From: an uncultured Mucispirillum sp.
Lineage (GTDB): Bacteria; Chrysiogenota; Deferribacteres; Deferribacterales; Mucispirillaceae
Direction: 5' to 3'
Assembly (NCBI GenBank): GCA_944324495.1
Contig: CALUWN010000006.1
Location: forward strand, 62,001-126,000
DNA length: 64,000 nt
Below the pieces are notes generated by a model. That model worked only from the letters and a program-made list of their open reading frames with translations, searched no databases and was not told the DNA's origin. Positions 26,294 through 56,487 of the stretch are shown piece by piece (position 1 is the stretch's first letter; every line of letters begins with the position of its first letter). Made by a program: the position numbers and the translations under genes.

Positions 26294-26518
26294 TTATGCT
26301 GAAACAACTTCTTTAATTTCAGGTATTTCTTCTTTAATTCTTGCTTCAATACCTTGTTTTAAAGTCATTAAGCTAAAAGGACAGCTGCCACAAGCACCTC
26401 TTAATGCAACAGTAACAACGCCGTCTTTAATATTGATAAGTTCAACATCGCCGCCATCTGCTTGTAAACCCGGGCGAACTTTATTTAATACTTCTTGAAC
26501 CCTTTCTTTTAATTCCAT
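26294..26518 (-). CDS. Nfu-type Fe-S carrier (NifU C-terminal domain)
   Basis: Protein of 74 residues made only of the NifU C-terminal domain. It carries RPGLQADGGDVELI and the cluster-binding CGSCPFS (CxxC) motif. Such domains hold and pass on [4Fe-4S] clusters. It follows iscU with a 24-nt gap, so scaffold and carrier, fused in classical NifU, are separate proteins here. Confidence 0.93.
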   Translation of the reverse strand: MELKERVQEVLNKVRPGLQADGGDVELINIKDGVVTVALRGACGSCPFSLMTLKQGIEARIKEEIPEIKEVVSA

Positions 26519-26542: not shown

Positions 26543-26980
26543 TTATTCAGCTTCTTTTTTAATTTCTGCTTTCATATTATCAACTATGGAAGCATCTTTA
26601 CCTTGTTTTATGTAGTAATCTTTTAAAGCTGCTTCAACAGCTTCTTCTGCCATTACTGAGCAGTGGATTTTTGCAGGTGGTAAGCCGCCTAAAGCATCAA
26701 CAATTGCTTGGTTTGTAAGTTTTAATGCATCTTCAACTTTTGCACCTTTTAACATTTCTGTAGTCATAGAGCTTGAAGCAATTGCTGCACCGCAACCAAA
26801 AGTTTTAAATGTAGAGTTTTCAATAACTCCATCACTATTTACTTTTAAGTATAATTTCATTACATCACCGCAAGATGGGTTACCAACTTCACCTACCCCA
26901 TTTGCGTCTTCAATTTCTCCCATATTTCTTGGGTTTGTAAAATGATCCATCACTGTATCACTGTATGGTCCTGCTGCCAT
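26543..26980 (-). CDS. iscU: Iron-sulfur cluster scaffold IscU/NifU-N
   Basis: Scaffold protein of 145 residues on which [2Fe-2S] clusters are built. All three cluster cysteines are present in their usual settings: NPSCGD near residue 36, FGCGAAIAS near 62 and KIHCSVMAEEA near 107, with the conserved Asp after the first Cys. The N-terminus (YSDTVMDHFTNPRNMGEI) is typical. It is 19 nt downstream of nifS. Because the partner NifS here lacks its PLP lysine, the source of sulfur for this scaffold is an open question. Confidence 0.95.
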   Translation of the reverse strand: MAAGPYSDTVMDHFTNPRNMGEIEDANGVGEVGNPSCGDVMKLYLKVNSDGVIENSTFKTFGCGAAIASSSMTTEMLKGAKVEDALKLTNQAIVDALGGLPPAKIHCSVMAEEAVEAALKDYYIKQGKDASIVDNMKAEIKKEAE

Positions 26981-26999: not shown

Positions 27000-28199
27000 T
27001 TATTTTTTTATTTTTGACGGGTCAAAAGCCGGGCTCATTGCACAAAGTTTATCAATGATTTCCGGACTAACTTTTAACACGTAGTCAATATCCTCTTCTG
27101 TATTATATTTTGAAAGGCTCATTGTAATAGACCCTGCACAAATATCTGTTGGTACGCCAACAGCAGTAAGTACATGGGAAGCCTGTAAATCTTCTTCATC
27201 TTCAGCTAATATATTTGATGAACATGCTGAACCACTGGCACAATATACACCTTTTTGAGCATACCACATTAAAAGTGATTCACCCTCAATATATTCTACC
27301 CAAAAGCTTACATGGTATGGAAGCCTGTTTTCCACATCGCCTGTAATATGAAGAAAATCATACTGGTCTGTAAGACCTTTAATTAACTTATTTCTTAATT
27401 TCATAAGATGAGGAACATAATCTTTCATCTCATTTTTTGCTATTTCGCAGGCTTTACCAAGCCCAATAATAGCAGGAACATTTTCACTACCGCTTCTAAT
27501 ACCTCTTTCTTGAAAACCACCGTCAAATAATGGTTTTAATTTTACTTCTGGAGCTACATATAAAGCTGCCGCACCACGTATTCCATAAAAGTTTTGAGCA
27601 GCAATAGTCAATGTAGAAGCGTTCATTTTATTAACATCAATATCAATAAAACCACAAGAAGCTACTGCATCAACATGAAAATGTATGCCTTTTTCTTTAC
27701 ATATTTTACCAATTGCTTCAATATCTTGAATAACACCAATTTCAGAGTTAGCATGAGCAATTGCTACAAGTGCAGTATCATCTTTTATAGCATTTGCAAC
27801 ACTTTCTGGTGATACCCTACCATTTTTATCAACTTGTAATTTTGTAAAAGTATAGCCATCATTCATCATTTTTAATACTGGATTTTGTATGGAATAATGC
27901 TCTATCTCACTAATAATAATATGTTTTTTATTACCACTTAACCCCATTACACCTTTTATGGCAATATTATTAGATTCTGTACCATTAGATGTAAATATAA
28001 TTGTTTCAGGGTTTTGTGCCCCTATTAAGTCTGCCACCTGCTTACGTGCCTGATTAATAGCATTATAGCACTGCCTGCCAAGTGGATAAAAATGTGCTGC
28101 AGGGTTTCCATATTTTTCAGTTAAATATGGTATAACTTCATCTACCACCCTGCTATCAGGCTTTGTGCCTGCAATATTGTCTAAATATATTGGTTCCAT
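27000..28199 (-). CDS. nifS: NifS-family protein lacking the PLP-binding lysine
   Basis: Fold-type I aminotransferase-like protein of 399 residues, NifS/IscS group. Retained features are YLDNIAGT at the N-terminus, SNGTESNN, the active-site-type His101 in IEHYS, Asp177 in FHVDA, the GSEN loop after GIRSG, and the flexible-loop cysteine Cys326 in CASGSACSS. The expected SGHK segment before YGPKG reads AAQNFYGIRG: the Schiff-base lysine is Asn203 and its His neighbour is Gln202. The Gln of the DATQS motif is Ala180. The gene is intact and in operon with iscU and nfu, so decay is unlikely. Desulfurase activity by the normal mechanism is not expected. Confidence 0.9.
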   Translation of the reverse strand: MEPIYLDNIAGTKPDSRVVDEVIPYLTEKYGNPAAHFYPLGRQCYNAINQARKQVADLIGAQNPETIIFTSNGTESNNIAIKGVMGLSGNKKHIIISEIEHYSIQNPVLKMMNDGYTFTKLQVDKNGRVSPESVANAIKDDTALVAIAHANSEIGVIQDIEAIGKICKEKGIHFHVDAVASCGFIDIDVNKMNASTLTIAAQNFYGIRGAAALYVAPEVKLKPLFDGGFQERGIRSGSENVPAIIGLGKACEIAKNEMKDYVPHLMKLRNKLIKGLTDQYDFLHITGDVENRLPYHVSFWVEYIEGESLLMWYAQKGVYCASGSACSSNILAEDEEDLQASHVLTAVGVPTDICAGSITMSLSKYNTEEDIDYVLKVSPEIIDKLCAMSPAFDPSKIKK

Positions 28200-28201
28200 T
28201 A

Positions 28202-29005
28202 TTACATAACCTCTCTTAACTTTTTCATAACATCTTCAATCAGCACTCTCACATAGTCACCCACAAAAGTAAAAGCGTTTCTTCGTGGGATAACTGCAAT
28301 ATCTGAACGTTCTGAAATATCTGCTGCTGTAAAGAAACTTTCTGTAGGGAAATAACCTTCATCGTCCTTTAGCCCAAAAGCATCTTTTGCAAAAACATCT
28401 ATTTCAAAAACAGTTGAAAGTGGTGAGATTCTAACAGATACATCGCCACCTGAGGCTGCAAAATCATCTACTGTTTTACCAACAGGAAGACCTGCAATCA
28501 GTGGGTTAAAGTGCTTATTGAAAGCTATTCTGTTATGAAATACTAAACTTTCACCTTCATCAAAAGAAAAAATACTTCTTGTTTGCTGCATTAAATCTTC
28601 CACTCCGTGTTTACCATATACACATACTGGAAGTGATACTGTAACAGTAACATCTGCAACAGGTACTGCTATATTTTTTAATACTTTTCTCACAGGTTCA
28701 TCTATTTTAAAAACTTCTACATCATTTCCAAATTCATAATCTGTAATATCTATAACTGTACCGTCAAAATTTTTTATAATGTTATTTTCATCTTTCAAAG
28801 GTTTTGCAAGTAATATTAATATTTCAGCTTCCCTTATAGATGATAAATCAGTTTCTACATACCCTTCTGCTGTATCTTCTAAAGAATCTGCAAATTCTTT
28901 ATCACCATATATAGTGTATTCTAAAAGAGGAAATTCACTTTCCACCTTTGAAAGAAAATCTAATAACAATAAATAATCATCAACAAAAATTGCTGTTTTA
29001 ATCAT
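28202..29005 (-). CDS. USG-like / aspartate-semialdehyde-dehydrogenase-related protein
   Basis: Protein of 267 residues. Its middle and C-terminal parts resemble the dimerisation domain of aspartate semialdehyde dehydrogenase and especially the USG-1 paralogues: VSLPVCVYGKHGVEDLMQQT, then FNKHFNPLIAGL, ISPLSTVFEIDVFAK and a C-terminal VGDYVRVLIEDVMKK. The N-terminal dinucleotide-binding glycine motif is missing and there is no NPNC-type catalytic cysteine, so it is probably not an enzyme. It ends 2 nt before nifS and follows the RodZ-like gene by 18 nt. Role in this operon unknown. Confidence 0.5.
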   Translation of the reverse strand: MIKTAIFVDDYLLLLDFLSKVESEFPLLEYTIYGDKEFADSLEDTAEGYVETDLSSIREAEILILLAKPLKDENNIIKNFDGTVIDITDYEFGNDVEVFKIDEPVRKVLKNIAVPVADVTVTVSLPVCVYGKHGVEDLMQQTRSIFSFDEGESLVFHNRIAFNKHFNPLIAGLPVGKTVDDFAASGGDVSVRISPLSTVFEIDVFAKDAFGLKDDEGYFPTESFFTAADISERSDIAVIPRRNAFTFVGDYVRVLIEDVMKKLREVM

Positions 29006-54470: not shown

Positions 54471-54525
54471 ACTCTTAATAAGTGGTTGTGTTTTATAACC
54501 CAAAATTTTGAAAAAGGAGGACTAT

Positions 54526-55146
54526 ATGCGTAAAAGCATCATGATTCTTACACTTTCATTGTTGACTATCACAACTACTGCAACAATTGTAATGGCTCAG
54601 GAAAATGAAGAAGGCCGTAGATTTGGTAACTTCTGTTCTTCATGCCATGGTACAGCTGGTGCAGCAGTATCTGATGCTATACCATCTATTGGTGGTCAAC
54701 ATAAAGATTTCTTAAAAAACTCCATGATGGATATGAAACCTATTGTTGTTGATGGCAAAGAACAAGCACCAAAAAGGTATTCTACTCTTATGAAGATTTT
54801 CTTAAAAGGCTATTCTGAAGCAGAGATTGAAGCTATGGCTGATTGGTATTCAAGCCGTCCTTGGGTTCCTACATCATATCCATTAAACCAAGACTTAGTA
54901 GCAAAAGGCAAAGCAAGCACACAACTTGAAACTTGCACATCTTGCCATGGTGCTAATGGAAACAATGTAGAAGATGCTGGTATTCCACGCATAGGTGGTC
55001 AAGTTCCTACTTATCTTTATAATGCATTACTTGAATATAAAAATGATAAACGTATGACAGAAAGAGCATCAGAAATGGAATTAGTTAAAGAAATCAGCGA
55101 TGAAGAATTAAAAGCATTAGCTGAATATTTTTCTTCTCTGAAATAA
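54526..55146 (+). CDS. Diheme cytochrome c, partner of a sulfide dehydrogenase
   Basis: Periplasmic c-type cytochrome of 206 residues with a signal peptide (MRKSIMILTLSLLTITTTA and cleavage near MAQ). Two heme sites are seen, CSSCHGTAG near residue 38 and CTSCHGANG near 139, in two similar halves, as in cytochrome c4 and in the cytochrome subunit of flavocytochrome c. ATG at 54526 is chosen since AAGGAGG lies 5 nt upstream. It is 15 nt before the flavoprotein gene and would take electrons from it. Confidence 0.88.
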   Translation: MRKSIMILTLSLLTITTTATIVMAQENEEGRRFGNFCSSCHGTAGAAVSDAIPSIGGQHKDFLKNSMMDMKPIVVDGKEQAPKRYSTLMKIFLKGYSEAEIEAMADWYSSRPWVPTSYPLNQDLVAKGKASTQLETCTSCHGANGNNVEDAGIPRIGGQVPTYLYNALLEYKNDKRMTERASEMELVKEISDEELKALAEYFSSLK

Positions 55147-55161
55147 TTAAGGGGTGTTAAT

Positions 55162-56487
55162 ATGAAAAAAATCTCAAGAAGAAGTTTTGTTAAAACAACA
55201 GCTGTTACAGCTGCATCCCTTTCATTATTTGGGCTTGCAGGATGTAAAAAAACAGAACAAAAACCTGCTGCAACTCAAGATGCTGCAGCACCAGTTGCAG
55301 AGAGTGCAAAAACAGGTCATACAGTAGTTATTGCAGGTGGTGGCTATGGTGGTGCTACTACTGCTAAATATTTAAAAATATTAAACCCTGCTATTAATGT
55401 TATATTAGTTGATAGAAATGCTGAACACGTTTCTTGTGCTATGAGTAACGAAGTTATTTTTGGACTTAGAGATATGAGTGAAATCACTATGCCTTTAAAA
55501 AGGTTAGCTGATAACCATGGTATTGATTTCAGACAAGCAGAAGTTACAGGGCTTGATAAAGAGAAAAAAGTATTAAAAACAAGTGCTGGTGATATTTCTT
55601 ACGATAAATTAGTTGTATCTCCAGGTATCAGTATGGATTATGACCCTGCTCTTAACTTTACTGAAGATAAACAAGCAAAATATCCTCATGCTTGGATAGC
55701 AGGTAAACAAACTGAACAGTTAAGAGATATGGTAAGCCAAATCAAAGCTGGCGATACAGTTATATTTAGAACACCATTAGCATTATATCGCTGCCCACCT
55801 GGACCATATGAAAGGGCTTGTTTATTTGGTAATGCTGCTCTTAAAAAAGGTGCAAAAGTTATCGTACTTGACCCTAACCCACAAATAATGAGTAAAAAAC
55901 CATTATTTGAAAAAGCATTTAACACTACTTATAAAGATGTATTAACATACATTCCAAGTGTAAATGTTACTGCTATTGACTACGATAAAAAAATCGTTAA
56001 AACAGATAAAGGTGATTTCCAAGGCACATTAATTAACTTTGTTCCAAACCAAAAAGCTGGTGAACTTGTGTTTACTTTAGGGCTTGTGGAAGAAGGTAAA
56101 AAATGGGCTAGTGTTGACCCTAAAACATTTGAATCTACACTTGCTAAAGATGTTTATGTTATTGGTGATGCTATTGATTCTGCACCAGTTACAGAAATGC
56201 CAAAATCTGGTACTATTGCAAACGCAACTGGTAAAGTAGTTGCTGAAAACTTAGTAAGGATTTTTGCAGGCAAAGAACCTCTTGTACCGTTTGTTGGTAA
56301 CACTTGCTACAGTTTAGTTAGTGAAACTGAAGGTATTTGGATTGCTACACTTTATGAATATAGTGCAGAGAAAAATAAAATTGTTACTAGAAATGGTGCA
56401 AACGGTATACCTGAAGCTGCTTCTGTTGAAAATAAAGTTAACGGTCACAGCTGGGGGAACAATATTCTTATAGATACATTTATGTAA
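55162..56487 (+). CDS. Flavocytochrome c sulfide dehydrogenase, flavoprotein subunit
   Basis: Periplasmic FAD protein of 441 residues oxidising sulfide to sulfur or polysulfide. It begins with a Tat signal (SRRSFVK) and a lipobox-like LAGC. FAD binding is at VVIAGGGYGGATTAKYLK near residue 54. The redox cysteines of the family are in place: YRCPPGPYERAC near residue 212 and NTCYSLVSETEG near residue 390, the latter in the C-terminal FCSD domain. The diheme cytochrome is encoded just upstream. A SoxF-like role is possible; no other sox genes are seen. Confidence 0.92.
   Translation: MKKISRRSFVKTTAVTAASLSLFGLAGCKKTEQKPAATQDAAAPVAESAKTGHTVVIAGGGYGGATTAKYLKILNPAINVILVDRNAEHVSCAMSNEVIFGLRDMSEITMPLKRLADNHGIDFRQAEVTGLDKEKKVLKTSAGDISYDKLVVSPGISMDYDPALNFTEDKQAKYPHAWIAGKQTEQLRDMVSQIKAGDTVIFRTPLALYRCPPGPYERACLFGNAALKKGAKVIVLDPNPQIMSKKPLFEKAFNTTYKDVLTYIPSVNVTAIDYDKKIVKTDKGDFQGTLINFVPNQKAGELVFTLGLVEEGKKWASVDPKTFESTLAKDVYVIGDAIDSAPVTEMPKSGTIANATGKVVAENLVRIFAGKEPLVPFVGNTCYSLVSETEGIWIATLYEYSAEKNKIVTRNGANGIPEAASVENKVNGHSWGNNILIDTFM

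Follow-up and report, generated by a model that had tools for sequence, protein, structure and literature searches.

A NifS/IscS-like protein without the PLP-binding lysine is conserved beside IscU in Deferribacterota

What might a cysteine desulfurase homolog do beside an Fe-S cluster scaffold when it lacks the lysine that binds pyridoxal phosphate (PLP)? The question is raised by a gene in a 64,000-nucleotide stretch of DNA from an uncultured Mucispirillum sp., which is the whole stretch that was analyzed and is called the window below. The features of the window that matter here are as follows.

26294..26518, minus strand: nfu-type carrier (NifU C-terminal domain), 74 amino acids
26543..26980, minus strand: iscU scaffold, 145 amino acids, with every cluster-site residue present; the sole IscU found in the genome
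27000..28199, minus strand: lysine-less NifS/IscS-like protein, 399 amino acids, defined by an open reading frame, an Aminotran_5 match, and an AlphaFold model
27591..27593, minus strand: codon AAC (Asn203) in the place of the PLP-binding lysine
28202..29005, minus strand: 267-amino-acid protein of no known family, whose gene ends 2 nt upstream of the nifS-like start
54508..56487, plus strand: cytochrome c and the flavoprotein of flavocytochrome c sulfide dehydrogenase (FCSD), together a sulfide-oxidizing pair

The frame of the nifS-like gene (28199..27000, minus strand) has no internal stop. Its stop codon lies 19 nt from the iscU start at 26980, and nfu is located downstream of iscU. The ORF coordinates therefore bear out the arrangement described in an earlier sequence-only reading of this DNA, which had proposed an intact frame 19 nt before an iscU with its cysteines, followed by nfu. 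The cluster-site residues of the window IscU are Cys37, Asp39, Cys63, Lys104, His106, and Cys107. The 267-amino-acid protein has no Pfam or PDB match, and the next gene upstream of it encodes a RodZ-like protein. Five other Deferribacterota loci have its gene in the same position, with rodZ on one side and the lysine-less nifS on the other. The FCSD genes are the "sulfide dehydrogenase pair" recognized in the earlier reading. Their presence is compatible with sulfide exposure and is no evidence for a mechanism.

The segment AAQNFYGIRG of the nifS-like protein contains Gln202 and Asn203. When aligned with Escherichia coli IscS (residue numbering in agreement with PMC9978102), Asn203 takes the place of Lys206, Gln202 that of His205, and Ala180 that of Gln183. 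Further losses are seen at Arg354 (Thr359), Asn155 (Ser152), and Ser203 (Ala200). Retained are His101, Asp177, and Cys326, which correspond to His104, Asp180, and Cys328. The six residues named in the sequence-only reading (Asn203, Gln202, Ala180, His101, Asp177, and Cys326) are all as claimed when the ORF is read and aligned, although its list missed the changes of the substrate-binding Arg354 to Thr359 and of Asn155 to Ser152.

The consequences can be gauged from E. coli IscS, in which the changes K206A, H104Q, D180G, Q183E, and C328S each abolish activity, and in which Arg354 binds the substrate carboxylate and R354K remains active (PMC9978102). The window protein would form no PLP–lysine Schiff base and would have no arginine to hold the carboxylate. 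Because both residues are lost, cysteine desulfuration is not expected. The E. coli mutants and the lysine-less IscS of Archaeoglobus fulgidus, which is considered below, together suggest that desulfurase activity has been lost.

The overall fold appears to be preserved. The protein matches the class V aminotransferase family PF00266 (Aminotran_5) with 233 bits, and its best NCBIfam model is TIGR03402, with a score of 422.5 bits that falls under the cut-off of 530.75. The AlphaFold model has a mean pLDDT of 89.5 and a NifS/IscS fold, and Foldseek matches it to Nfs1, E. coli IscS, and A. fulgidus IscS. Loop 325–337, which bears Cys326, has pLDDT values below 50 in this model, as a mobile loop would.

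Orthologs with 56%–92% identity are present in almost every class genome, the nearest named loci being from Mucispirillum (88%–89% identity). The lysine is missing in every Deferribacterota ortholog read, across independent assemblies. A sequencing error, with the lysine present in other strains, had been proposed in the earlier reading as one way to overturn its view, but an error shared by every ortholog read in the class is not a credible explanation. The triplet at the lysine site is Q-N-F/I in the main order and T-N-L in the deepest family, and the Asn codon is AAC or AAT in 13 of the 13 copies compared. Within the genus, dN is ∼0.06–0.08 and dS is ∼0.8–1.2 (dN/dS ∼0.06), which indicates that the lysine-less protein is under strong purifying selection.

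Class genomes with a match have one full-length IscU each, and its gene adjoins the lysine-less gene wherever the contigs allow comparison. Six additional IscU matches in the class are weak (21–22 bits), a strength that is not IscU-like. SUF core proteins were not found in 46 of 48 class genomes. Given a single IscU and the absence of SUF, almost every class genome has the nifS–iscU pair as its sole recognizable system for de novo assembly. Exceptions are few. Neither the lysine-less gene nor iscU was found in G014, and the incomplete genome G037 has IscU with no lysine-less match. Genomes G024 and G035 carry a lysine-bearing IscS beside IscU in place of the lysine-less pair. Their IscU proteins are 70%–73% identical to clostridial IscU and 57%–58% identical to the window IscU, and their IscS groups with Clostridia in the tree. 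This lineage thus seems, from its sequences, to have exchanged the whole pair rather than NifS alone, and the clostridial-type iscS–iscU pair (loci L055 and L084) likely represents a horizontal replacement.

To place the window protein in a wider context, 385 genomes were searched and the best 60 matches outside the class were read. In total, 200 group I homologs were compared, named loci included. One contig scan supplied 80 named loci, most of them lysine-bearing Clostridia that served as controls. Viral contigs were also searched and gave no match. Both the lysine and the arginine are present in 130 of the 200 homologs, neither is present in the other 70, and no protein is mixed. This exceptionless rule is striking, yet it reflects few independent events, since near relatives share history. 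Other active-site positions divide the homologs in a similar manner. The Gln183 equivalent is present in 130/130 lysine-bearing proteins versus 5/68 bacterial lysine-less proteins, and the His205 equivalent in 130/130 versus 14/68; Asn155 and a loop serine are also lost in the lysine-less proteins. The equivalents of His104, Asp180, and Cys328 are invariant in both the lysine-bearing proteins and the 68 bacterial lysine-less proteins. At the lysine site itself the lysine-less proteins have N, Q, S, R, D, V, H, T, or G.

Trees were built after the columns that define the trait had been removed. In them, the bacterial lysine-less proteins form one clade (SH-aLRT 98; UFBoot 99 and SH-aLRT 98 in a second tree), whose members come from Deferribacterota, Zixibacteria, Chloroflexota, a deltaproteobacterium (listed under Myxococcota), and others. 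The alignment check proposed with the sequence-only reading therefore reveals the lysine loss as a fixed trait of a supported clade. The IscU partners, 56 of lysine-less and 89 of lysine-bearing proteins, show no variation at any cluster-site residue. Among 25 genomes outside Deferribacterota that encode a lysine-less protein, IscU is found in 23 and the SUF core is missing in 22. The idea that SUF absence is peculiar to such genomes was rejected as too weak, SUF being present in 3/25 of them versus 11/29 lysine-bearing controls. Flavodiiron and rubrerythrin-like proteins are encoded near five of the lysine-less genes (loci L105, L108, L102, L098, and L039), as expected of anaerobes.

Gene neighborhoods outside the class point to candidate sulfur donors. 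Outside Deferribacterota, 11 of 27 lysine-less loci have a gene for TusA no more than 3 kb from the nifS-like gene, and 8 of 27 have one for DsrE, versus 0 of 113 lysine-bearing loci in either case. The Fisher values (2e-9 and 7e-7, respectively) are overstated, as the loci are related and contain few independent pairs. Examples of both proteins were confirmed by Pfam. TusA is also encoded upstream of the gene for the protein at locus L146, which alone among the homologs groups with IscS of A. fulgidus. At three loci (L101, L107, and L114), a radical-SAM-like protein of ∼390 amino acids follows the lysine-less nifS–iscU–tusA cluster. In the genus of the window, TusA was found in none of 10 genomes, and DsrE was not found in the class. 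As donors in Mucispirillum, TusA and DsrE were rejected on the lack of any PF01206 or PF13686 match, and the relay of these relatives is therefore not directly transferable to this genus.

The reading that we consider probable, on the basis of sequence and analogy, is that the window protein is a conserved pseudo-desulfurase, a partner of IscU whose Cys326 passes on sulfur from outside or serves as a ligand of the cluster as it forms. The protein would dock IscU the way IscS does, as its fold match suggests. Cys326 would then either carry a persulfide or bind the forming [2Fe-2S] cluster as a temporary ligand. Sulfur would arrive from outside, delivered by a persulfide donor (TusA or DsrE in many relatives) or as sulfide, and a separate lysine-bearing IscS is another possible origin; for the pair in the window, sulfide or a persulfide protein is the source that we infer. 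The pocket may still hold PLP noncovalently, because the equivalents of the PLP contacts His104 and Asp180 are invariant. The sequence-only reading had viewed this NifS as a cysteine-donating or sulfide-accepting partner of IscU. That view fits all of the sequence evidence and the A. fulgidus parallel. It needs to be widened in two respects: The TusA and DsrE neighbors in other phyla suggest a protein persulfide relay rather than free sulfide alone, and the genome's normal lysine-bearing IscS could supply sulfur in trans. A broader proposal, which we put forward tentatively, is that the clade constitutes an ancient bacterial family of NifS proteins that are not desulfurases, that these proteins support IscU-based assembly from sulfide or protein persulfides (TusA/DsrE) instead of cysteine and PLP, and that they belong to the sole de novo system of Deferribacterota, in which case nearly the whole class would assemble its clusters with no desulfurase at the scaffold.

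The chief rival is that a canonical IscS supplies sulfur to IscU in trans, so that assembly depends on cysteine after all and the lysine-less protein is a docking subunit or a persulfide relay. A search for a second desulfurase, also suggested with the earlier reading, indeed uncovered in the same genome a canonical IscS with both the lysine (SGHK) and the arginine, encoded in a cysE–iscR–iscS cluster without iscU. This cluster (L001 1–4089) also holds an 85-amino-acid ORF of no Pfam family. Almost all class genomes searched encode a lysine-bearing second copy, as do the other lysine-less genomes whose second copies were read. However, the canonical gene never adjoins iscU, except as the clostridial-type pair of G024 and G035, and the canonical copy could serve tRNA thiolation and other uses. 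We regard this explanation as rather unlikely, but it deserves more weight than any other competitor.

It is considerably less probable that the window protein is still a PLP enzyme that uses another lysine or none, possibly with a different substrate. The invariance of the His104 and Asp180 equivalents in 68/68 bacterial lysine-less proteins would suit such an enzyme, and E. coli K206A retains some bound PLP and forms intermediates slowly (PMC9978102). However, Arg354, Gln183, His205, Asn155, and a loop serine have been lost too, and the variety of residues that replace the lysine suggests no shared new chemistry. The sequence-only reading had named a substitute lysine as a result that would count against it. 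Lysines are enriched in the clade at K255, K82, K13, and K364, but these lie outside the pocket and not one of them is invariant, and a replacement lysine was rejected on the latter ground. Decay or artefact, meaning a pseudogene or a sequencing error, has nothing in its favor apart from the loss of a catalytic residue and can be dismissed with near certainty, given the intact frames, the same Asn across assemblies, the low dN/dS value, and the retained operon.

A lysine-less IscS is already known from A. fulgidus and has been noted for Methanosarcina acetivorans IscS1. In the literature searched, outside of which most subscription papers fall, we found no description of the bacterial lysine-less family or of its link to TusA and DsrE. 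Reviews state that every Fe-S assembly system except SMS includes a cysteine desulfurase (e.g., PMC11559095). In nearly the whole class considered here, the partner of the sole IscU system is, by its residues, no desulfurase. If the pseudo-desulfurase reading is true, IscU-type assembly from sulfide or persulfide would be a widespread bacterial mode that extends beyond one archaeon. It would also provide a natural system in which the part that a desulfurase plays as a platform for IscU is separable from its chemistry. The TusA and DsrE neighbors offer direct, testable candidates for the sulfur donor.

The closest known counterpart is A. fulgidus IscS (PDB 4EB5, 4EB7, and 4HVK; D199K mutant, 4R5F), whose sequence was confirmed against PDB 4EB5. 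Like the window protein, it lacks the lysine (Asp in its place), the glutamine of the DAxxS motif (Ala), the histidine (Asn), and the substrate-binding arginine (Leu), and it retains the loop cysteine and an IscU partner. The two folds are alike (TM 0.90–0.95), although the proteins are 38% identical in the structure alignment and the window protein differs in its longer cysteine loop with SSNILAEDEEDL. In two reports, A. fulgidus IscS is described as being without desulfurase activity and its Cys321 as a cluster ligand (PMC7585200; PMC9769115), and PLP is depicted in the structure of the complex (PMC9769115). In the best trees found, this protein falls outside the bacterial lysine-less clade. 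A tree constrained to one clade with it has a higher likelihood and a p-AU of 0.854, and one clade is recovered in 39% of bootstraps. The hint of an independent lysine loss in the first tree was therefore dropped, since the AU test does not reject a single clade.

Other systems share parts of this arrangement. Group I desulfurases (NifS/IscS/Nfs1) have the same fold, loop cysteine, and IscU neighbor, but the window protein lacks the equivalents of their Lys206, Arg354, Gln183, Asn155, and His205. The minimal MIS system (MisS/MisU) is likewise an IscS–IscU pair, and M. acetivorans IscS1 is reported to be without the lysine (PMC7585200). The Deferribacterota system resembles a MIS-type pair in having a single IscU beside a lysine-less NifS, with SUF absent in the 46 of 48 genomes noted above. 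The window pair adds nfu, however, and published descriptions treat MisS as a cysteine desulfurase (PMC11559095; PMC12442378), whereas the window protein is by its residues no standard desulfurase. Fe-S assembly from sulfide without a desulfurase has been reported for SMS (SmsCB) in methanogens (PMC12192291). The scaffold of that system is of the SufBC type, whereas the scaffold in the window system is IscU. For IscU itself, Fe-S assembly in an E. coli strain without iscS recovers with sulfide, a rescue that requires IscU (PMC13015791).
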